Below are positions 2,021 through 56,820 of a stretch of DNA of 64,000 bases, piece by piece (within the stretch, counting starts at the first letter, position 1; each line of letters begins with the position of its first letter). The stretch is from Bacteroidaceae bacterium (GTDB lineage: Bacteria > Bacteroidota > Bacteroidia > Bacteroidales > Bacteroidaceae), in the NCBI GenBank assembly GCA_024398435.1, contig JAKSJD010000004.1, forward strand, positions 124,001 through 188,000, in the 5' to 3' direction. The notes below the pieces were generated by a model that saw only the letters and a program-made list of their open reading frames with translations, ran no database searches and was not told where the DNA came from. A program made the position numbers and the translations under genes.

Positions 2021-4600
2021 TTATTTCTTCACCAGATTCAGTTTGCAGGTGAGCATGATGGTGCGACCGATGAGATGGCAATCCATCGTGTAGCGGTCGG
2101 TGGCATTGAATGTGGTGTAGCGATAGTGGCGCGTGTTGAGCAGGTTGTTGAGCGAGAGTTTCCACACGGCTCTGCTGGCCTTGTACTGTACCGAAGCTGA
2201 GAGAAGACTGAAGTTTTTGTACTGGTTGTCGGTTATCTGTGAGCGTACGAAGTCGTAACTTCCCTTGATTTCGATTTTGTCGATTGGGAACACTGAGAGC
2301 GAAAGGCTTGCATTCTCTCCGTCGGTAGTTCTGTGATTGCCTGTCCACCATGTGTAGTTTCTCGAATATTGTCCGTTGGCTCCTATTTCCATCCATGGAA
2401 GGGGTGTGACGGTGGCTTGTCCTTTGAAGGAATATGAGTTGCCGTAGGTGGTGACGACCTTGCCTTGGCTCATCGATTCGCTGCTCCCCCATGAACCGCT
2501 GGCTGTGAATTGCAGTTTGGTAGAGAGTGTGAGCAGATTCTTCGAGATGCTCAGGTTGGCGTTGGCGTTCTTTGTGTGGCTGTCGCGGAAGATTGAGGCT
2601 GTAGAGGTCGATTCTTCGTCGACATATTGCGAACTGAGTACATTTCGCTTGCCTTGTGTCCATCCCGCATCGGCAGTGAGGGTGAAATAGCTGAATGGTA
2701 TTTGGTAGGTGTATGACAGACTGGATGCCCATACCTGATTCTTGCCTATCACTCCCGATGCCATTGATGTGGTGCGGTAGTTGGTTTGCACGGGAGTGGT
2801 GAGCAGGTCGAGAATGTCGCCCACCGAGTTGTATATGGCTGAATGGAAGCTCATCTCGGATGTTCCGCTGAAGGTGTAGCGGAAGGAGAGGCGTGGTTCG
2901 GCAAAGAGTTCCGACATGGTTGTCTTCTTATCATCGAACCGAGAGCGATACATCATGTTTCTCCATTGCAAATTTGCTCCAATGCTCATGTATATTTTGC
3001 CAGATGGCGAGCGCCAATCGGTGCTTGGCGAAGCCCAAGGCGTGACGACCCAACCATCCAGTCGCTGGCCGAGGATGGCATCGTCGGGGGCGTGGAGTGA
3101 TGTTTCTATCATGTTGTAGTAGGCAGTAAGGTTGACGGGCAGGGAGATGCGCCACTTGCTGCCGAGCCGAATGGTGAACGATGTGCTGTGGTCGGTAGTG
3201 ATAGTGGTGCTTTGGCCTGTTTGCGATATGCTGTTCATGTTGAGGCATACTTTCGGTGCGCGGACGAATTCGATGTTGGAATTGAACGAGAGCTTGTTCT
3301 CGCCCATCCTGACCGTGCTTGCCAAATAATTGGAGATGGCCAATTGGGTTGCCTTTCGATTTTGATTGTTCACATCGGTGGCAATCACTGGGCATTCGTT
3401 TTCTTCAAACTGTGCCTTCATGTTCACTCTGTCCATGAAATAGCGGTCGTTGCCGTTGTTCTCATACCTTGCCTCAATCATTGGCCGATGCAGGCGTGTG
3501 TGAGGTCGGTTTTCCTCGTTGATGCTGATATTCTGGCCGTCGGCAAAATAGAGGGTGTTGGTGGATGACGAACTGTTGTAGTCTTCATAGGCATAGTCGG
3601 CATTCATTCTTACTTGGCGGTCGCTGTCCATCTTTTCGATGCCATTGAGCGAGGCATAGGCATTGGTTTGGTACAGGTATTCGCCAAGAGGCGGACGGGC
3701 AGAATTCCATTTGCCCAGTTTGTCGGTGGCGAGAGTGCTGATGTCATTGTTGCCGAAGTGGTCGATGATGTCGTACGAACCGAAATTGCCGTGGTTGCTG
3801 CCTTTGGCCGAACCGAGCAACTGGAAATTATCTGTGAACATCATGCCAGTGAGTCCAAGTGCATAGAGAGGGTCGTCTTCGCGAAGTCCGATGCCGGCTG
3901 CGGGTTGACCGAATGGCTTGAACTTGGCCTTGTTGCTGAGTTTCACGTTGAGGGCCACATCGTCGCTCTCTTCGTCGGCATCAATCTTTCGATGCTTGTG
4001 GTGCTTCATCACATCCACTTGAGTGGCATATTCGGCTGGGATGTTCTGCGTGGCAAGGTTGTATCTGCCTCCGAGCATGTCCATTCCTTCGATATAGAAA
4101 TGGGAGATGGCTTTGCCCAGATACTTTATTGTGCCATTATCTGTCACATCAATGCCTGGCAAACGCTTCAATCCGTCTTCAAGTGTGACATCGCCCTTGC
4201 CGAGAAAGGATGCGAGATTGTAGGAGAGGGTGTCGCCCTGGAAGATGATAGGTTGGGCTTGCACCTTCACTTCCTTCAGTGTCACTTGCTTATCGGTCAG
4301 CACCATATCCTGCTCCGTGGTCTTTTCCGTTAAAGTGAGTTTTACATTCTCCTTCTCATAACTTATATGACTGAATTGCAACTCGACTGCCCGATTTGGC
4401 ATTTCCCTCAATTCCAAAGTGTATTGGCCCTGTGCATTGGTCGAGGTGAAGGCCAATGTCTTGCCTTCGCTGACGCACTTTATTATCACATCGGCCACGG
4501 GAATATTCTTCAGATTTATCACTCGTCCCGTCACCTTCACCTGAGCCGAAGCGGAAAGGGCCATCAGCAAAGCAATGATTAACAAAGAAATCTTTTTCAT
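2021..4600 (-). CDS. TonB-dependent receptor-like outer-membrane protein with carboxypeptidase-regulatory domain
   Basis: This 859-residue outer-membrane beta-barrel protein has a signal peptide at 1-20 (ending SASAQ), then a carboxypeptidase-regulatory-like beta-sandwich at about 21-110 (VKVTGRVINLKNIPVADVII), then a plug-like segment at about 115-230 (LEDGLKRLPGIDVTDNGTIK). The remaining roughly 600 residues are amphipathic beta-strands ending LTCKLNLVKK. No SusD partner is adjacent, so this is not a classical SusCD pair. It is embedded among three GLPGLI genes and shares a near-identical signal peptide with them. Surface uptake or export of a peptide or metal ligand is possible, but the substrate cannot be read from the sequence. 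Confidence 0.85.
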   Translation of the reverse strand: MKKISLLIIALLMALSASAQVKVTGRVINLKNIPVADVIIKCVSEGKTLAFTSTNAQGQYTLELREMPNRAVELQFSHISYEKENVKLTLTEKTTEQDMVLTDKQVTLKEVKVQAQPIIFQGDTLSYNLASFLGKGDVTLEDGLKRLPGIDVTDNGTIKYLGKAISHFYIEGMDMLGGRYNLATQNIPAEYATQVDVMKHHKHRKIDADEESDDVALNVKLSNKAKFKPFGQPAAGIGLREDDPLYALGLTGMMFTDNFQLLGSAKGSNHGNFGSYDIIDHFGNNDISTLATDKLGKWNSARPPLGEYLYQTNAYASLNGIEKMDSDRQVRMNADYAYEDYNSSSSTNTLYFADGQNISINEENRPHTRLHRPMIEARYENNGNDRYFMDRVNMKAQFEENECPVIATDVNNQNRKATQLAISNYLASTVRMGENKLSFNSNIEFVRAPKVCLNMNSISQTGQSTTITTDHSTSFTIRLGSKWRISLPVNLTAYYNMIETSLHAPDDAILGQRLDGWVVTPWASPSTDWRSPSGKIYMSIGANLQWRNMMYRSRFDDKKTTMSELFAEPRLSFRYTFSGTSEMSFHSAIYNSVGDILDLLTTPVQTNYRTTSMASGVIGKNQVWASSLSYTYQIPFSYFTLTADAGWTQGKRNVLSSQYVDEESTSTASIFRDSHTKNANANLSISKNLLTLSTKLQFTASGSWGSSESMSQGKVVTTYGNSYSFKGQATVTPLPWMEIGANGQYSRNYTWWTGNHRTTDGENASLSLSVFPIDKIEIKGSYDFVRSQITDNQYKNFSLLSASVQYKASRAVWKLSLNNLLNTRHYRYTTFNATDRYTMDCHLIGRTIMLTCKLNLVKK

Positions 4601-5987: not shown

Positions 5988-6024
5988 ATTATATGAATTT
6001 TGAGTTAGTTCTTGTATAGAATCT

Positions 6025-6054
6025 TCCCCCTATGAGGGGGACAGGAGGGGGGCT
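6025..6054 (-). repeat. Poly-C/poly-G hairpin repeat, copy 3
   Basis: Five C residues, TATGA, five G residues, then ACAGGAGGGGGGCTT on plus. It is a diverged member of the family and lies upstream of the lipoprotein gene start at 5987. Confidence 0.65.
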
Positions 6055-6209: not shown

Positions 6210-6243
6210 TGACAATTGATGATTAGACAACAGACAAAAAACA

Positions 6244-6348
6244 CCGATGAAATCGAAGTTTTTTAAGCGAGATTCGACGAAGTCAAATCGAGGATTTTAG
6301 CATTTTTATCAATGTTTTTTGCATTGTTTACTTTTTGTTTACTCTTTG
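6244..6348 (+). promoter_or_regulatory. Orphan operator-like segment with palindrome and 11-bp tandem repeat
   Basis: It starts with CCGATGAAATCGAAGTTTT, whose exact reverse complement is at 40665-40683 upstream of the membrane regulator gene. It ends with two 11-bp direct repeats, TTTACTTTTTG and TTTACTCTTTG (6327-6348), resembling the GTGTATTTTTC pairs at 40701-40722 and 43311-43332. No gene follows on plus; the structured repeat at 6505-7110 comes next. Confidence 0.35.
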
Positions 6349-6504
6349 TAATTATGTATAGTGATACTGACTCATCGACTATGAGTTCACAGAGAAATTT
6401 TAGTTAGGCGGAGTCAAATGAATATTTGACGGAGCCAAACAAAGAAAAGCCATTGGTGTCAATGTTTGTCATTGCCAAATAATATCATTATAAGAAACGG
6501 CATC

Positions 6505-7110
6505 ACTTCTTATAATGTTTAGGGTCATTTCTTATAATGTTTGACCTCTTTTATTATAAGAAATACACCTATTCTTGGACGAGCCAAGCGACAAGTCGAT
6601 AACCTTATAATGTTTTTTACTTTGTAACAATAAGTATGGAACAATGGTGAAACGGAGCGCGCTTCGTGACCTCTCGAAGCGCGGAGTATTGCCCTTTGAA
6701 GCTATGCTTCGTGAGGCTTCGGAACGCGGTGTTTTTTACCAAGATATTAGATATAAGATATCAGATACAAGCTATGATAAGCGGTTTTGCATTGCAATCA
6801 TTTCAGTAAAATCTTATTTTCTCAAAAACTTGTCAGCCTGTCAGTTTTGTTCATAACTATCTCTGTGTCTGTAGGTTAAGTGCTGACAACTTTTTGAAAA
6901 CCTGTCAGCAACCTGTCAGCCATCCTTCAGTTTTCTTCTCAAAACAACTAATCTTCCCCCTTTTGGGGGGATAAGAGAGGGGCTTTATTTTTCCCGGCTG
7001 ACAGGTTACTGACAAGTTACTGACAGGTTTTGCGAAACCTGTCAGCCATCTAATGCTCTGATATTCTGCTATTTATACCCCTAAACTGACAGCTGACAGG
7101 TTTTTCTCAA
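6505..7110 (+). repeat. Structured non-coding repeat, copy A (about 600 bp)
   Basis: In order it holds TTCTTATAATGTTT words in direct and inverted orientation (6508-6620), a hairpin CGCGCTTCG/CGAAGCGCG with the loop TGACCTCT near 6658-6683, a second GC-rich hairpin, then eleven copies of CTGTCAG or its complement CTGACA(G/A) split into two blocks by a poly-C/poly-G hairpin at 6955-6985. A diverged copy with the same order is at 42592-43170. No convincing coding frame runs through it. It ends 7 bp from the stop of the lipocalin-like gene. Confidence 0.75.
6955..6985 (-). repeat. Poly-C/poly-G hairpin repeat, copy 4 (inside structured repeat A)
   Basis: CCCCC, TTTT, GGGGGG, ATAAGAGAGGGGC on plus. 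The same element sits in the same place in copy B at 43014-43044, so it travelled with, or was already part of, the larger repeat. Confidence 0.7.
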
Positions 7111-7116
7111 AAACTA

Positions 7117-7608
7117 TTATTTCTTCTTATTTAACAGATATTGCTTGATGAGAGCATCGGTTTTGGCATTGCCTTGAGAATCCTTACACATTCGCATGAT
7201 ATAGTCGGTCAGTTCCTTTGGTGGGTTAGCAACCTTCTTCCATTTATCGTGGCGAGTCTTCCAAGTGCCTGTGAATGTGTTCTTGTCGACGAGATTAAGA
7301 TTGTCCTTGCGTCCCATTTCGGTGTATTGACCGTTCTTGAATGTGTATTTGCCATACTCGTGAGGAAGTACTTTGCATGTGCCTTGATTGGATGAAAGGA
7401 TTTCAGCACATGCATATTCTCCGTTTGCGCGATAAATCTTCACCTGGGTGTATTCATTTTCGCAAACATACTTATCCTCACCTTCATATTGAAACGATTC
7501 CATTCGCCACATACCGATGAGAGCCGATTCAGGTACTTTTGTCTGTGCCAACGCCTGACCAATGCTCATGACGGAGAGGGTGGCAATGAGTAAAAACAGT
7601 TTCTTCAT
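7117..7608 (-). CDS. Secreted lipocalin-like protein
   Basis: This 163-residue exported protein has a signal peptide at about 1-22 (ending QALAQ). The mature part looks like a lipocalin-type small beta-barrel: it opens LIGMWRMESFQYEG, the conserved G-x-W entry, and continues with alternating strands (GKYTFKNGQYTEMGR, TFTGTWKTRHDKWKKV). It resembles DUF4488-type proteins, but I cannot confirm the family. The last gene of a three-gene operon, it starts 24 bp after the stop of a membrane HTH regulator whose outer domain begins with the similar LKGMWTLSRIEYPSD. A ligand-binding role shared with the regulator is an inference. Confidence 0.65.
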   Translation of the reverse strand: MKKLFLLIATLSVMSIGQALAQTKVPESALIGMWRMESFQYEGEDKYVCENEYTQVKIYRANGEYACAEILSSNQGTCKVLPHEYGKYTFKNGQYTEMGRKDNLNLVDKNTFTGTWKTRHDKWKKVANPPKELTDYIMRMCKDSQGNAKTDALIKQYLLNKKK

Positions 7609-7632: not shown

Positions 7633-8658
7633 TTATAATGATAGTATGAATTCATCCCAATCGTGGCTGCTGCCTTTCTTGTCGAACACTTTGCGATAGA
7701 GGCGGCTGCGGATGGTGCTGACGGAGCTTGCTTCCTTACACATTGCACTGGCAATCTCGGACGGATTGATTCGAATCTTGATGAGTGAGCAAACCTGTAT
7801 TTCGGTCTGCGACATAGGGCAAAGGGCGAGCAACGAGCTGTGGAACTGGGGATAGACACTTACAAGATGGCTGTCGAGTTCGCTCCAATCCTCGGCTGTG
7901 AGGAAATTGCCTTCGGATATGTATTTTCGCAAGCGATGGTAATAGTCGGAATGCAGGAATTCGGCCTCTACCTCATTCAGTGCATTCTGAACGGGAAGTG
8001 GGCGAAGGGAGCGTTCGCGTTCCATCTGTGCCAACTGACTTTCGATGCGCTTCTTGTTGCGGTGCATGCGGACGGAATAGTCGATAAGTCCGAGCATAAT
8101 CAATGCCGCAATGATGATAATGGCTCCAAGCGTATGGTTGGTGGTTTCGAGCTTTTGCTCGGCTGTGGAAATCACATAGCGATGGGCTTTCTCATCTGAT
8201 TCGTCTTCCATATTCACAATGTTGCGAATTTCATCTACCCGTCGTTCGAGTTCGCCGTGGTAGCGCTTGAAAGTACGCTTGATTCCCATGTACTGAATAA
8301 CGATTGAGGTGTCGGATTCGATTGTGAGCGGAATCTTTATATTGTTCTCAAAATAGAGGTTGTTGCCGTTGCCCTTGTCGATAAAGGTGTAGGTCCCCTT
8401 AGTATCGGGAGTGATGCTTATACCACTTTCCGATGTGGTCATCTGGCACATATACAAGAGGCTGTCCTCATAAATCAGAATCCAAGTATTTCCGTTGCGA
8501 GGATAATTCAAGACATAGCTCGTGTCGGATGGATATTCAATTCGGGAGAGTGTCCACATTCCCTTCAAAGGGTTGCCGTCGTCTTGCTTCGTTCCGCAAC
8601 TCATCGTCAGCAGAATGAGCAGGCTATATAATATATTATAATATGTGTATCGTTTCAT
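7633..8658 (-). CDS. Membrane-spanning regulator: lipocalin-like ectodomain, one TM helix, cytoplasmic HTH
   Basis: This 341-residue protein has a lipobox at the N-terminus (LTMSC, Cys21), a periplasmic lipocalin-like region at about 29-130 (NPLKGMWTLSRIEY), one hydrophobic helix at 176-194 (LGAIIIIAALIMLGLIDY), a charged coiled segment at 198-220, and a C-terminal LuxR/two-component-output-like HTH at about 282-325 (MSQTEIQVCSLIKI, then IASAMCKEASSVSTIRSRLY). This topology places the sensor outside and the DNA-binding domain inside. Bacteroidales encode many such one-component proteins, mostly uncharacterised. The neighbours are a 53-residue membrane protein 8 bp upstream and a secreted lipocalin-like protein 24 bp downstream. 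The target and ligand are unknown. Confidence 0.75.
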   Translation of the reverse strand: MKRYTYYNILYSLLILLTMSCGTKQDDGNPLKGMWTLSRIEYPSDTSYVLNYPRNGNTWILIYEDSLLYMCQMTTSESGISITPDTKGTYTFIDKGNGNNLYFENNIKIPLTIESDTSIVIQYMGIKRTFKRYHGELERRVDEIRNIVNMEDESDEKAHRYVISTAEQKLETTNHTLGAIIIIAALIMLGLIDYSVRMHRNKKRIESQLAQMERERSLRPLPVQNALNEVEAEFLHSDYYHRLRKYISEGNFLTAEDWSELDSHLVSVYPQFHSSLLALCPMSQTEIQVCSLIKIRINPSEIASAMCKEASSVSTIRSRLYRKVFDKKGSSHDWDEFILSL

Positions 8659-15630: not shown

Positions 15631-15841
15631 TTTACACAAAATATAATTATCGTGCAAAAATACGAACATTTTTTGAATACTCAAAAGCAAATGCCCGATT
15701 TTAAGTCTTTTTAAAGTTTTTTTAGGAGTTTTATGTAATAAAAGTCTTTTTCACTGGTGTTTTTTTAGGGGTGAACCGTGATTTCAATGGCTGGCAATAA
15801 TATGAGGAGATGCAGAGTGTTGCATGGTCTTCAAAAAAACC

Positions 15842-15916
15842 TTGCTAACCCCGAGGCCATTTCTTGCTAAACATGAGGCATTTTCTTGCTAAACTCGAGG
15901 CCATTTCTTGCTAAAC
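15842..15916. repeat. Tandem array with 22-bp period (3 full units plus 9 bp)
   Basis: Each unit begins TTGCTAAAC and contains GAGGCCATTTC, with units at 15842, 15864 and 15886 and a partial unit at 15908. It sits between the ribD stop (15944) and the start of the DUF6242-like gene (15630). The rest of this 313-bp gap is A/T-rich with a T-run at 15705-15725 and no gene. Confidence 0.8.
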
Positions 15917-15943
15917 AAATAATAGAAATGACAAAGGGCGTTA

Positions 15944-40620: not shown

Positions 40621-40664
40621 AGGGGGCCCCACGAAAACTTAGATTTGACATCCGTCGAACCTCG

Positions 40665-40722
40665 AAAACTTCGATTTCATCGGGGTTTTTGGGGGGTGAC
40701 GTGTATTTTTCGTGTATTTTTT
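40665..40722 (+). promoter_or_regulatory. Operator-like element upstream of the TPR regulator gene
   Basis: AAAACTTCGATTTCATCGG (40665-40683) is the exact reverse complement of 6244-6262. It is followed by tandem 11-bp repeats GTGTATTTTTC and GTGTATTTTTT (40701-40722), ending 13 bp before the -33 box. The same tandem repeat occurs 12 bp before the -33 box of the gene at 43517. Confidence 0.5.
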
Positions 40723-40735
40723 CTTACTAAAATAT

Positions 40736-40766
40736 TTTGCTGAAAAACGATATTGCAGTATCTTTG
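40736..40766 (+). promoter_or_regulatory. Bacteroidota promoter of the TPR regulator gene (TTTG-N19-TATCTTTG)
   Basis: TTTG at 40736-40739 and TATCTTTG at 40759-40766 are separated by 19 bp, an exact match to the Bacteroidota consensus. Transcription would start near 40773, 14 bp before the ATG at 40787. This excludes the longer start at 40712. Confidence 0.85.
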
Positions 40767-42490: not shown

Positions 42491-42591
42491 TATGCAAATA
42501 TTCAATCAATAGTCAGATAGAAATATTTGATAACTGATATCTTCACAAAAACATTGCGTTCCGAAGGGTAAAACATTATATGAAATAGGTG

Positions 42592-43170
42592 CGTTTCTTA
42601 TAATGTTTAGTGCCATTCCTTATAATGTTTGACCTCTTTTATTATAAGAAATACACCGATAACTTATAATGTTTTTTCATTGCAGCAATAAGTATGGAAT
42701 AAAGAAGAAACGGAGCGCGCTTCGTGACCTCTCGAAGCGCGGTTCATGACGTAAAACACCGCGCTTCATGATGCTTCGGAACGCGAAAAATTGTACCTTG
42801 TACTTGGGCCTTTGTACATGAATAGTGTTCAGTGTTGCAAAGTTTTACCTTGCAATCATTCAGGAGAAAACGAATTTTTTCAAAAACCTGTCAGCCTTCA
42901 GTTTTTGCCTCTAAACCACTGTTACATAACGACTTAAGTGGCTGACAGGTTTCCCAAAACCTGTCAGTAACCTGTCAGCCATCCTTCAGTTTGCTTCTAA
43001 AAACAACTAATCTTCCCCCTTTAGGGGGATAAGAGAGGGGCTTTATTTTTCCCGGCTGACAGGTTCCTGACAAGTTGCTGACAAGTTTTTACCAACCTGT
43101 CAGCCATCTAACTCATAGATACATAGAGAGTTATACCTCAAAACTGAAGGCTGACAGGTTTTTCGCAAAA
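42592..43170 (+). repeat. Structured non-coding repeat, copy B (about 580 bp)
   Basis: The order of parts equals copy A at 6505-7110: TTCTTATAATGTTT words, the CGCGCTTCG/CGAAGCGCG hairpin (near 42717-42742), a second GC-rich hairpin, nine CTGTCAG/CTGACA words in two blocks, and a poly-C/poly-G hairpin between them. The hairpin core ACGGAGCGCGCTTCGTGACC is identical in both. Unlike copy A it follows a regulator gene in the sense direction. Confidence 0.75.
43014..43044 (-). repeat. Poly-C/poly-G hairpin repeat, copy 6 (inside structured repeat B)
   Basis: CCCCCT, TTA, GGGGG, ATAAGAGAGGGGC on plus, at the position equivalent to 6955-6985 in copy A. Confidence 0.7.
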
Positions 43171-43282
43171 TTCTTTTTTTCTGGAGAAACAACAGCCTAT
43201 TTCCCTTCAATAAAATTGTCCATCGTTGCAACTTAGAGTGTGAAAAATGAGAAAATTGTGTTTTGGTGGTGTCCGTGAAAAC

Positions 43283-43332
43283 CCGATGAAATCGTGGATT
43301 TTGGCACGACGTGTATTTTTCGTGTACTTTTT
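43283..43332 (+). promoter_or_regulatory. Operator-like element upstream of the secreted plug-like gene
   Basis: CCGATGAAATCG (43283-43294) is followed by GTGTATTTTTC and GTGTACTTTTT (43311-43332). A 19-bp stretch GACGTGTATTTTTCGTGTA is identical to that upstream of the TPR regulator gene. Confidence 0.5.
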
Positions 43333-43516: not shown

Positions 43517-43936
43517 ATGAAGAAAACAATGTATTTGGTTGTATTTGCTGCATCATCAGTGGCAGCTTTAGCACAAGTCTCATTATCTGAACAGCCACAA
43601 AAGCCTGCGTTGGATATAACTGCAAATGGAACAGCGATGAGTCTTACAAAAAAAATTGATGAAATCCCATTGTTGATAGCATATGATGAAGAAGTGGTAG
43701 ACAAAGAAAAAACGACCATTGATATAAATAATTATCAATTCTCTGCTAAGAATCTTGCTGCTATTCTTGGAGTAAAGCCAAAAAAAGTAAAAGCATACCG
43801 CTTACTTGAGGGAAAAAATGCCACACAAATATGGGGATATAGAGGTATCAATGGGGTATTGGAAATTTTATCTCCTTCAAGATATCGTCAATTAAAGAAG
43901 AAAGGCGTTCTCGAGAATTTCAATATTGCAAAATAA
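43517..43936 (+). CDS. Small secreted protein with TonB-plug-like C-terminus
   Basis: This 139-residue exported protein has a signal peptide at 1-19 (ending AALAQ). The middle (about 55-85) reads TIDINNYQFSAKNLAAILG, and the end reads VKAYRLLEGKNATQIWGYRG and INGVLEIL. It resembles the plug motif of TonB receptors, in which a strand is followed by iyG-x-R-x-x-NGV-x-x-I, but without any barrel. Stand-alone plug-like domains are known in some envelope signalling proteins, so this may be a soluble partner or a remnant. It is 59 bp upstream of a lipocalin-like gene and shares operator-like DNA with the membrane regulator gene. The function is unknown. Confidence 0.6.
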   Translation: MKKTMYLVVFAASSVAALAQVSLSEQPQKPALDITANGTAMSLTKKIDEIPLLIAYDEEVVDKEKTTIDINNYQFSAKNLAAILGVKPKKVKAYRLLEGKNATQIWGYRGINGVLEILSPSRYRQLKKKGVLENFNIAK

Positions 43937-53604: not shown

Positions 53605-54876
53605 TTAAAGACTTAACTCCTTCTTGATGAGGTCCACCATATCGAGTTTCTCCCATGTGAAGAGTTCGACTGTAACATCATAAGTGCCGCCCGATTGGTA
53701 AGGGCTGTAGAAATGCTTCACGACGGTACGAGGTTGGCGTCCCATGTGGCCATAGGCAGCGGTTTCCTCGTAGATAGGGTTGCGAAGTTTGAGGCGTTGC
53801 TCGATTGCATAAGGGCGAAGGTCGAATGCCTTGTTGTTCTTTATGTAATCAGCAATTTCGCCGTCAGTCATATTTACATGTGAATGGCCATAAGTGTTGA
53901 CGTAGATGCTTACAGGTTCGGCCACTCCGATTGCGTAGCTCAACTGAACAAGCATTTCGTCGGCCACTCCGGCTGCTACCATATTCTTGGCAATGTGGCG
54001 GGCAGCATAGGCTGCACTGCGGTCGACCTTTGAAGGGTCTTTGCCTGAGAATGCTCCGCCTCCATGGGCTCCTCGGCCTCCATAGGTGTCGACGATTATC
54101 TTTCTGCCTGTAAGGCCTGTATCTCCATGAGGGCCTCCAATCACGAACTTGCCTGTAGGGTTGACCCAATATTTGATGTCGTCGGTGAAGAGTGCCTTCA
54201 CATTCTCGTCTTTCAGTTCGGCCACAACTCGAGGAATGAGGATGTTCTTGACATCTTGCTCAATCTTATCGTGCATGCACTTTTCGTCAGGGTCGAAGTC
54301 GTCGTGCTGAGTGGAAACTACGATTGTGTCGATGCGTACAGGGCGGTCGTTGTCATCGTATTCGATTGTTACCTGACTCTTGCTGTCGGGACGAAGATAA
54401 GTCATTACCTTTCCTTCCTTTCGGATGTCGGCAAGAATCTTGAGGATTCTGTGGCTCAAATCGAGTGAAAGAGGCATGTAGCTCTCTGATTCATTGGTTG
54501 CATAGCCAAACATGATGCCTTGGTCGCCGGCTCCCTGTAGTTCGGGATTGCCTCGGTTGACACCTTGATTGATGTCGGGACTTTGCTCGTGAATGGCAGA
54601 AAGAACGCCACAACTCTCGGCTTCGAACTTGTATTCGGCCTTTGTGTAGCCAATGCGGTTGATAACTTTTCGTGCCACTTCCTGAAGGTCGATGTAAGCT
54701 TTTGAACTTACCTCTCCGGCTACAACGACGAGACCTGTGGTCACCATCGTTTCGCATGCTACTTTCGAATCGGGGTCGAAAGCGAGGAAATGGTCGAGAA
54801 CAGCGTCGGAAATCTGGTCAGCCACTTTATCTGGATGACCTTCACTGACTGATTCTGAGGTGAATAAATAACCCAT
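53605..54876 (-). CDS. metK: S-adenosylmethionine synthetase
   Basis: This 423-residue enzyme makes SAM from methionine and [23 protein letters not shown] at about 9-28 binds ATP and Mg, [15 protein letters not shown] lies at about 120-134, and [20 protein letters not shown] at about 280-299 is the phosphate-binding loop. It heads the DUF4271-hemD-rnpA-yidD-TatD operon. Its roughly 180-nt leader contains a structure matching the SAM-II riboswitch, so feedback control by SAM is likely. TAACTTTG on minus at 55061-55068 is a plausible -7 box for the leader. Confidence 0.96.
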
Positions 54877-54993
54877 ACTAATTTAATTGTTTAAAAAGTT
54901 AATAAAATTAGTGGGAGAAATTGGGATGAGAGCCTCGGCGCGGAACGGCCTTCAAAGAGAAAGGTATCAAAACCGTTGCAGGCCCAAGGCCTT

Positions 54994-55048
54994 GCTAATT
55001 TTAGCATTTTTTAGCGTGGTTGCAAGCAGCCCAAATCTGTCCACATTT
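54994..55048 (-). promoter_or_regulatory. Probable SAM-II riboswitch in the metK leader
   Basis: On minus the stem TGTGG/CCACG encloses GATTTGGGCTGCTTGCAA, followed by CTAAAAAATGCTAAAA. This matches the SAM-II layout: P1, the GAUUU...UUGCA loop and the 3' GCUAAA strand of the pseudoknot. The conserved GCTAA is immediately followed by TTAGC, which can fold back on it as a competing hairpin (GCTAAAATTAGC). The location just downstream of a TAACTTTG promoter element and about 120 nt before metK agrees with feedback control. This was judged by eye and not by a covariance model. Confidence 0.75.
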
Positions 55049-55313
55049 TGTTTTCGGCTGCAAAGTTAGTGAAAAGTTGTGAGATAACGGATGCAATACA
55101 TTGTTTTTTTTATATGTAAGGAGCATTTTGCTTCAAAACTCCCGACTTTGCCCACAGTGAACTTGCAAGTGGGAGCCAAAGGTTGGAAAATTTGGCTTTT
55201 TGTTCGCAAACCTCCGAAAACACGAAAAATAGGGCAAAAAGCAATATTTTTGAACTTGAGAGTATTGCTTTGGTAATCAATGCTTTACGTTACTGTTTTT
55301 GTCCTTCATGTTG

Positions 55314-55394
55314 AGGACGTTTGTCCTCTATAAGGGAGGACATTCGTCCTTTGAGGGAAGGACATTCGTCCTCTGTAGGCGGGACACTCGTCCT
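55314..55394. repeat. Palindromic array with 22-bp period (4 units)
   Basis: AGGACATTCGTCCT-type palindromes start at 55314, 55337, 55359 and 55381, i.e. spaced 23, 22 and 22 bp, with different linkers. It lies 146 bp upstream of the nucleoside transporter gene. The remainder of the 663-bp gap holds the metK leader on minus and A/T-rich DNA; TACCTTTG at 55489-55496 is a likely -7 box for the transporter. Confidence 0.8.
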
Positions 55395-55539
55395 CGCAGG
55401 AAAGGACAAACAAAAGTGCAGAATGTTTTTTTCCGTTGTTTTATAAACAAAACTCACAACTTGTAGCTTCTAATTCGATTTTTTTGCGTACCTTTGCAGT
55501 CGCACATTATTATTATAACGCGTATAAAGACAAAGAAAT

Positions 55540-56820
55540 ATGGAAAATAACAATCAGACAGGCTTGAAAATTCGCCTTATCGTGATGAACTACCTCATCT
55601 TTGCAGTTTGGGGTTCGTATTTGTGTTCACTCGGAGTTTACCTCGGAAATGCCAACATGGGTGCCAACATCGGTTCCTTCTTCGCAATCCAAGGTATCGT
55701 GTCATTGTTTATGCCGGCTCTCATGGGAATCGTGGCCGACAAGTGGATTCCAGCACAGAAGTTGCTCGGTATCTGCCACTTGCTCGCTGCTCTCTTTATG
55801 GCTGGTGCTGCCTATATGGGTATGAAGAACGAGGGTAACCTTCAGTTCGACCAGATTTTCTGGCTCTATGCCTTGAGTGTAGCATTCTTTATGCCTACAA
55901 TCGCTCTCGGCAACTCCGTTTCGTACAATGCTTTGACTCGTGCAGGACTTGACACAGTGAAGGCATTCCCTCCAATCCGCGTGTTCGGTACGGTAGGTTT
56001 CATCATCTCAATGTGGATTGTCGACCTCACAGGTTTCAAGGAAAACTACATGCAACTCTACGTTGCTGCAGCTTGGGGCTTGGTTCTCGGCTTGTATGCA
56101 TTCACATTGCCTGATTGTCCAATCGACCACACAAAGCAGAGCACTTCATTCGTCGATGCGTTCGGACTCCGTGCCTTCGCACTCTTCAAGCAGAAGAAGA
56201 TGGCTTTGTTCTTTATCTTCTCGTTCATGCTCGGTATGTGCCTTCAGGTAACAAACGGTTTCGCAGGCACTTTCCTCGGCGACTTTGGCAATATCAGCGA
56301 GTTTGCAGATACATTTGCAGTGAAGCACAATATCATTCTTTCATCACTCTCACAGGTGAGCGAAACTCTCTGTATTCTCCTCATTCCATTCTTCCTCAAG
56401 CGATTCGGCATTAAGATTGTGATGCTCATCTCTATGCTCGCATGGGTTCTTCGCTTCGGATTCTTCGGAATTGGCGACCCAGGTCAGGGCGTTTGGCTCT
56501 TCATCCTCTCAATGATTGTCTATGGAGTAGCATTCGACTTCTTCAACATTTCCGGTTCGCTCTATGTTGACCAGGAAACCGACGAAGGCATCCGCTCAAG
56601 TGCCCAGGGAGTGTTCATGATGATGACAAACGGTTTGGGAGCAACAATCGGTTCGTTCTGTGCCCAGGCAGTAGTCAACAAGTATGCATATTGCTACGAT
56701 GTAGCCGACCCAATGCGAATGGAAGGTTGGTCAACATGTTGGTACATCTTTGCAGCATTTGCACTCGTTGTAGCAGTCCTCTTCGCTGTATTGTTCAAAT
56801 ATAAGCATGTGAAGGAATAA
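55540..56820 (+). CDS. Nucleoside:proton symporter, MFS (NupG-type)
   Basis: This 426-residue permease has 12 hydrophobic segments and the NupG family look: LIVMNYLIFAVWGSYLCSLG at about 12-31, GSFFAIQGIVSLFMPALMGI then VADKWIPAQKLLGICHLLAA, and VSYNALTRAGLDTVKAFPPI then RVFGTVGFIISMWIVDLTGF in the first half. NISGSLYVDQETDEGIRSSA then QGVFMMMTNGLGATIGSFCA lies in the second half. It imports nucleosides into the cytoplasm. It is 46 bp before hisS and probably co-transcribed. The specificity is inferred from family resemblance. Confidence 0.88.
   Translation: MENNNQTGLKIRLIVMNYLIFAVWGSYLCSLGVYLGNANMGANIGSFFAIQGIVSLFMPALMGIVADKWIPAQKLLGICHLLAALFMAGAAYMGMKNEGNLQFDQIFWLYALSVAFFMPTIALGNSVSYNALTRAGLDTVKAFPPIRVFGTVGFIISMWIVDLTGFKENYMQLYVAAAWGLVLGLYAFTLPDCPIDHTKQSTSFVDAFGLRAFALFKQKKMALFFIFSFMLGMCLQVTNGFAGTFLGDFGNISEFADTFAVKHNIILSSLSQVSETLCILLIPFFLKRFGIKIVMLISMLAWVLRFGFFGIGDPGQGVWLFILSMIVYGVAFDFFNISGSLYVDQETDEGIRSSAQGVFMMMTNGLGATIGSFCAQAVVNKYAYCYDVADPMRMEGWSTCWYIFAAFALVVAVLFAVLFKYKHVKE

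Follow-up and report, generated by a model that had tools for sequence, protein, structure and literature searches.

Extragenic palindromes of high copy number have mostly been described one family at a time. Plasmid-origin iterons and the phased operators of wrapping regulators such as the Lrp-type octamers consist of direct or palindromic sites spaced by whole helical turns along one DNA face; the repeats analyzed here are similar in this placement, but they occur in dozens to hundreds of chromosomal copies by unrelated genes.

By description, BrickBuilt of P. gingivalis comes closest to these repeats; it is an intergenic MITE of 23-nt tandem units, with promoter elements, which is present in 19 copies (PMC4596501). 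BrickBuilt shares with our elements the intergenic location, the multi-copy occurrence, and tandem units of nearly equal size in which one part is conserved and another varies, as well as predicted stem loops and the same bacterial order (PMC4596501). Its leader and tail, with terminal inverted repeats around the units (PMC4596501), may have a counterpart in the inverted repeats of our modules. The difference is that BrickBuilt is one 23-nt family of one species, whereas here a period of 22 is common to unrelated families within and between species; a register across families is not described in the excerpted text (PMC4596501), while here the register is kept across families and orientations. 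Compared by description, our arrays work like BrickBuilt and are not members of it, as they have a period of 22 in place of 23-nt tandem units without a spacer. Separately, a 23-bp tandem array, with a period near that of BrickBuilt, was observed in a Bacteroidaceae MAG from sheep rectum (JAFXDL010000098.1, L180:10590-10740).

The REP, BIME, and REPIN repeats are reported to carry a GTAG or CGTC tag at the foot of the palindrome (PMC3733652) and to have RAYT transposases (PMC3733652, PMC2817692, PMC3116915). They resemble our repeats as high-copy extragenic palindromes which form mosaics of two orientations (PMC3733652, PMC2817692, PMC3116915); the difference is the fixed 22-bp centre spacing found here. 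Neither tag was seen by eye in the unit words TTATAATGTTT, GAGGATATCCTCGC, and CGAGTGCGNNCTC. The Y1 transposase (PF01797) had 0 matches in the genomes G000, G008, G015, and G016 and was present in 6 of the 17 genomes of the genus; since the four former genomes are 63-90% complete, a Y1 gene may have been missed in them. The RAYT/REP origin was rejected because these four amplified genomes gave zero Y1 transposase matches. The matches listed in the open-licence PMC literature included no account of palindrome arrays phased at 22 bp in Bacteroidales.

Composition and Genomic Context of the Elements

Two composite intergenic repeats, W1 (6482-7112) and W2 (42570-43181), were delimited in the window, i.e., the whole stretch of 64,000 nucleotides that was analyzed. 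They are two among many such repeats of the Bacteroidales genome G000 and align with each other over 636 columns with 74.5% identity (E 2e-110). A search of this genome (2.3 Mb, 77.6% complete) with W1 returned 74 matching pieces, so that the "two copies" of the sequence-only reading were refuted. The modules A, B, D, S, and H were found jointly or singly across the copies. The following features were recognized in the window:

6482-6571, + strand: array A of W1, four in-phase TTATAA-cored units with centres at 6490, 6512, 6534, and 6556, spacing exactly 22
6574-6603, + strand: insert D of W1 (CTTGGACGAGCCAAGCGACAAGTCGATAAC, two small hairpins), itself a dispersed repeat
6605-6615, + strand: final TTATAATGTTT unit of W1
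6655-6730, + strand: module B of W1, the CGCGCTTCG/CGAAGCGCG hairpin (6658-6683) and a second GC-rich hairpin
6816-7112, + strand: module S of W1, a long inverted repeat with two blocks of CCTGTCAG words at 11-bp intervals
6951-6986, no strand assigned: hairpin H of W1, poly-C/poly-G, in the loop of S
42570-42676, + strand: array A of W2, five in-phase units with centres at 42578, 42600, 42622, 42644, and 42666, without D
42716-42785, + strand: module B of W2, two GC-rich hairpins, with CGCGCTTCG/CGAAGCGCG at 42716-42741
42864-43181, + strand: module S of W2, outer arms of 42 nt, 88% complementary
15840-15920, + strand: further 22-bp-phased array, unit CTTGCTAAACACGAGGCCATTT (TRF consensus)
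55314-55408, + strand: further 22-bp-phased array, unit AGGACATTCGTCCTCTGAGGGA (TRF consensus)

The words named in the sequence-only reading were present in the same order in both W1 and W2: TTATAATGTTT words, some of them inverted, the CGCGCTTCG/CGAAGCGCG hairpin, the second GC-rich hairpin, and the CTGTCAG blocks with the poly-C/poly-G hairpin between them. Its further view, that conserved words with diverged linkers speak for recurrent movement and not for a recent duplication, was supported as well. The letters of the two further arrays (15840-15920 and 55314-55408) differ from those of W1 and W2. The latter array lies between metK (53605-54876, - strand) and a nucleoside symporter gene (55540-56820, + strand). 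A SAM-II riboswitch (54991-55050, - strand, Rfam 52.7 bits) was found upstream of metK and represents ordinary regulation; the array is located just past it.

The fold of W1 as DNA was better than those of 20 dinucleotide shuffles (z -10.3). As RNA, W1 had z-scores of -6.9 and -6.5 on the two strands (20 shuffles), and the only W2 fold, RNA of the + strand, had a z-score of -11.4 against shuffles. ORFs of at least 100 aa were absent from the interior of W1 and W2. At the gathering threshold, Rfam assigned no family to the W1/W2 copies; over ten loci it recovered two tRNAs only, both in L140. In an alignment of eight copies of module S, the TGTCAG words were mostly invariant and 7 of the 72 predicted pairs changed two-sidedly, with an unfavourable covariation term of +4.58; it is the word itself that is conserved in this module, not pairing alone. 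The structured RNA proposed from the sequence was rejected as a family owing to the missing Rfam match and the weak covariation.

Searches of the plasmid and phage collections with W1 (blastn, E 1e-5) gave zero matches, and among the viral contigs there were none with two phased A words and none with the exact S word; on these empty searches, a plasmid or phage iteron origin was rejected. The 26-base CGCGCTTCG...CGAAGCGCG hairpin word had zero exact matches in the genome contigs, a collection which may omit records near G000.

Module S is an inverted repeat of roughly 300 bp with CCTGTCAG words every 11 bp and is distinct from the 22-bp array. In W2 it carries long terminal inverted repeats, and the A/B array is situated beside S, not within it. 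Locus L058 is devoid of S and locus L062 of most of the S arms; both retain outer arm sequence, which suggests that a long palindrome has been deleted there. An interpretation of L058 as an empty site for S was discarded on reading, as the outer arm ends are still there and a deletion is likelier. An S-like plan with CTTCAG replacing TGTCAG, as if the word had been switched as a set, was observed at L057:2700-3170. Module D is a double hairpin of 29-30 bp inserted into A arrays.

Words of the type TTGCAAC-AGTATG were found at module borders of W1, W2, L057, L058, and L062. Those of the TTGCAACAATAAGTATG type, located at the A/B border and at the far end of the composite (window 6622, 42680, and 43226; L057:2577 and 3163), are a possible exchange site. 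Another dispersed intergenic repeat, CCGATGAAATCG...GAGGATTTTAGC...GTTTACTTTTTGTTTAC, lies outside the array at 6237-6350, 40634-40739, and 43280-43330 of the window and also at L057:3225-3283 and 4209-4310.

W1 adjoins a Lipocalin_4 gene (7117-7608) followed by a gene (7633-8658) whose product has weak similarity (27% over 73 aa, E 3e-6) to the regulator on the W2 side. For the gene to the right of W2 (43517-43936), neither a Pfam match nor a significant similarity to 7117-7608 was obtained. Ten genes flanking nine other copies encoded SecA, GNAT, metallo-hydrolase, GH43, lectin/BACON, acyltransferase, nuclease, ChlI-type AAA, and NUDIX/NrtR proteins, and one was without a match. Thus, the regulator and lipocalin genes once suggested as common neighbours are not such: the right-hand gene of W2 gave no match to the lipocalin gene, and the other copies are flanked by unrelated families.

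The 22-bp Register in Genome G000

The word TTATAATGTTT occurred 61 times at 26 places of genome G000 (60 centres), while the reversed control occurred 0 times. Distances of up to 150 bp between neighbours (n = 34) were 22 (24 cases), 44 (6), 66 (1), and 73 bp (3). All three 73-bp distances (W1, L065, and L071) contained the D insert, and the value of 73 is 44+29 because the insert sits inside the array.

Units with TTATAA, CTATAG, and CGCG cores mostly had one 22-bp register in common. Distances within 1 bp of 22n made up 116 of the 132 between units of the same family and 34 of the 47 between units of different families, with about 14% expected by chance (12 of the 88 possible distances); these counts, like those of half-sites and information, come mostly from loci L057-L076, chosen by similarity to W1, together with L126 and L128, and the core patterns were fixed after inspection. 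In 105 hand-chosen in-phase units, the positions 1-8 bp away from the centre had an information content of 0.43-0.87 bit and those at 9-11 bp one of 0.08-0.21 bit, i.e., a unit is conserved for about 8 bp on either side of its centre and conservation fades across a 6-bp linker. In a strict palindrome scan, pairs at 22 bp numbered 1 for the window, 6 for the chosen loci of G000, and 4 for 26 loci of relatives; many A units have no palindrome beyond TTATAA.

Phased Arrays in Related Genomes

Further copies in related genomes, proposed as a check in the sequence-only reading, were not found as letters but were found as a plan. At E 1e-8, the letters of W1 matched G000 alone among 17 genomes of the genus and were absent from its 16 relatives, whereas 22-bp-phased arrays with other letters were frequent in several of these. 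Outside G000, the TTATAATGTTT word had 0-9 matches per genus genome, with up to 12 for the reversed controls there. The exception to the absence of W1 letters at a looser threshold (E 0.001) was hairpin H, with matches in 10 of the 31 genomes including G000, all of the same genus (9 of the 16 genus relatives); among the matches listed outside G000, H (query about 462-528) was the only part of W1. This hairpin (CTTCCCCCTTTTGGGGGGATAAGAGAGGGGC) is dispersed in the genus relatives (L031-L056), and in the window it is located at 6019-6052 and 6951-6986.

The unit families are species-specific. GAGGATATCCTCGC had 262 matches in G016 (135 forward and 127 reverse) and 0-1 in the 16 other genomes of the genus; CGAGTGCGNNCTC had 233 in G015, 129 in G008, 10 in G016, and 0-3 elsewhere. 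Neighbour centre distances were nearly always multiples of 22 among the matches listed: 51 of 52 distances of up to 150 bp in G016 (100 of the 262 matches listed), 28 of 28 in G008 (100 of 129), and 11 of 11 in G015 (29 of 233), or 90 of 91 when pooled. Pairs of inverted units among the matches listed were in register in 15 of 15 cases (8 of 8 in G016, 5 in G008, and 2 in G015). The 88 ten-base linkers of G016 comprised 56 distinct sequences with 230 deviations from the consensus in 880 positions, and one interval was off phase. Arrays of four units accounted for 17 of 26 in G016, and for 4 of 6 in stretches fetched before the GAGGATATCCTCGC family was counted.

Noncoding DNA sampled from 18 genomes was scanned for lags irrespective of the letters; in this set, which is not random as many stretches of genus relatives were picked around H matches, 53 arrays were detected at lag 22. 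The mean for lag 22 in three shuffles was 2.7; lag 21 gave 24 arrays, and the other lags from 13 to 40 gave 1-16 each. The shuffles, three per segment, covered lags 20-24 only, with a low-complexity filter slightly laxer than that of the real scan. Coding regions were masked via simple ORF rules, the sampled genomes were 51-100% complete, locus L158 (6.6 kb of G003) was excluded, and G023 gave just 11 kb. The genus contributed 45 of the 53 arrays: 13 in G000, 8 in G010, 6 each in G015 and G016, 4 in G005, 2 each in G006, G012, and G013, 1 each in G007 and G014, and 0 in G011. Beyond the genus, 5 were found in G018 and 1 in G017, both of the same family, and 2 in members of the order. At lag 21, there were 10 arrays in G000 and 7 in G015, the latter number being above that for lag 22 in the same genome.

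Among the single arrays observed, one of 12.6 units of CCATATATACACACCACGGTAG with a 22-bp period is located at L115:6781-7058 in G018. Arrays with a 21-bp period, which number 24 in the lag-scan sample, are exemplified by L139:7741-7838, L143:16051-16110, and L119:10717-10813.

At 80 named metK loci, nearly all from Bacteroidota, lag 22 gave 8 arrays, lag 21 also 8, and lags 13, 14, 19, and 37 gave 7 each; as lag 22 is level with lag 21 and near the others at these loci, the lag-22 excess looks like a trait of the clade. Conserved columns clustered in the 25 lag-22 arrays outside G000 (9 at p<0.05, mean autocorrelation 0.25, Fisher 2e-9) and more weakly in the 44 arrays of other periods outside G000 (8 at p<0.05, 0.08, Fisher 5e-5). 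Dyad symmetry of the consensus units of the 53 lag-22 arrays was 4.98 against 4.65 in permutations, with 1 of 53 at p<=0.05. Some unit families are perfect palindromes; universal dyad symmetry was not supported, its level being barely above permutation, and for the same reason many lag-22 arrays may not be symmetric sites.

Taken as a class, these are dispersed intergenic arrays in which 22 bp between centres is held and the letters turn over, a class broader than the element of the sequence-only reading.

Possible Origin and Function of the Arrays

We tentatively regard W1 and W2 as a dispersed MITE/REPIN-like composite intergenic element with phased docking sites for a putative dimeric DNA-binding protein; among the readings considered, this one has the best chance, somewhat short of even. 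Its backbone would be imperfect palindromes of about 16 bp with centres 22 bp, i.e., two helical turns, apart. With this spacing, a symmetric (dimeric) protein could occupy each unit from one side of the helix, where it would touch the proteins next to it or wrap the DNA. Letters of the half-sites would then drift and be replaced between species, while the centre-to-centre distance would be kept, and occupancy may act locally (by shielding, looping, or termination) close to the 3' ends of genes. In favour of this reading are the 22-bp register across unit families and orientations, linkers that vary in letters at constant length between conserved cores, the clustering of conserved columns in lag-22 arrays outside G000, the excess of lag 22 over shuffles, and the families specific to single species of one genus. 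The binding platform suggested earlier is supported as one such predicted reading. A stronger form extends docking to the whole chromosome in a Bacteroidales clade, with a fast-changing dimeric protein co-evolving with the arrays, the letters of dozens to hundreds of sites replaced per species, the 22-bp register kept, and several proteins, often four, side by side at gene ends; this form we consider rather unlikely.

Several observations count against docking: dyad symmetry over the 53 lag-22 arrays was hardly above permutation, lag 21 was also raised, G011 had zero arrays and G007 one, columns clustered, more weakly, at other periods, the lags at metK loci were level, and array ends in G016 were partly terminator-like. 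A mechanism copying whole units could hold the phase without selection. Of the 95 classified units of G000, 72 pair unlike half-sites. Half-sites that face each other over the centre were associated by 0.27 bit (null 0.12, p 0.001), and those that face each other over the linker by 0.41 bit (null 0.14); with p 0.001 across the centre, half-sites are not independent there either, which is also unfavourable for docking. The lower association across the centre and the frequent unlike pairs would rather be expected of selfish non-autonomous mobile elements, in which the 22-bp units and the S arms would be predicted transposase or recombinase sites of an absent parent element and half-sites would be mixed by recombination at unit centres, but the half-site classes were set by eye. 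The high, species-specific copy number, the long terminal inverted repeats on S of W2, the predominance of four-unit arrays in G016, and the precedent of BrickBuilt, a known MITE with a 23-nt minisatellite (PMC4596501), also agree with this origin. It is made doubtful by the lack of Y1 transposase matches in G000, G008, G015, and G016, by flanks in which no target duplication was recognized on reading, and by L058, which reads as a deletion and not as an empty site; we consider it improbable and rank it second to docking. A neutral minisatellite, in which slippage would have produced tandem units, 22 bp would be accidental, and spread passive, is consistent with the tandem repeats of many periods in these genomes. 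It is the least probable of all the readings, and a very improbable one, given that several species use one period with letters that are unrelated, that inverted units are in register among the matches listed, and that linkers vary in letters and not in length.

The position of the arrays relative to genes bears mainly on a role as 3'-end transcription elements, in which adjacent palindromes would pair in RNA as tandem, often bidirectional terminators or as mRNA-protecting hairpins, S being a large version. The folds of W1 and W2, far above shuffles, are in line with it, and 7 of 14 copies in G000 begin 11-120 bp past the stop codon of a + strand gene. According to a crude frame test, the 52 flanks in G016 consisted of 31 gene 3' ends, 14 5' ends, and 7 unclassified; 20 of the 52 outward ends were T-rich, compared with 22 of 156 stretches taken as background (p 5e-4), and the preference for 3' ends together with the T-rich ends fits bidirectional terminators. 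In the wider sample, however, the 3' bias was weaker: 20 of 31 arrays in tandem gaps were closer to the 3' end (p 0.07), and the gaps holding the 45 genus arrays, 24 tandem, 10 convergent, 7 divergent, and 4 contig edges, were roughly at baseline, the divergent ones being unfavourable for this role. Nor do hairpins require a fixed 22-bp distance between palindromes or a register common to different cores, while covariation in S is weak and many A units are non-palindromic past TTATAA. We consider this role improbable and place it behind docking and just behind the transposase sites.

Significance

The invariant of these repeats is the register and not the letters; arrays can, therefore, be found in any genome without a known sequence, and a reader protein can be tested for simply. 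Should a protein read the arrays, Bacteroidales chromosomes would have in it a new organiser or boundary factor, with a specificity that turns over between species. If the reader is a mobile enzyme, it would account for the rapid replacement of such families.
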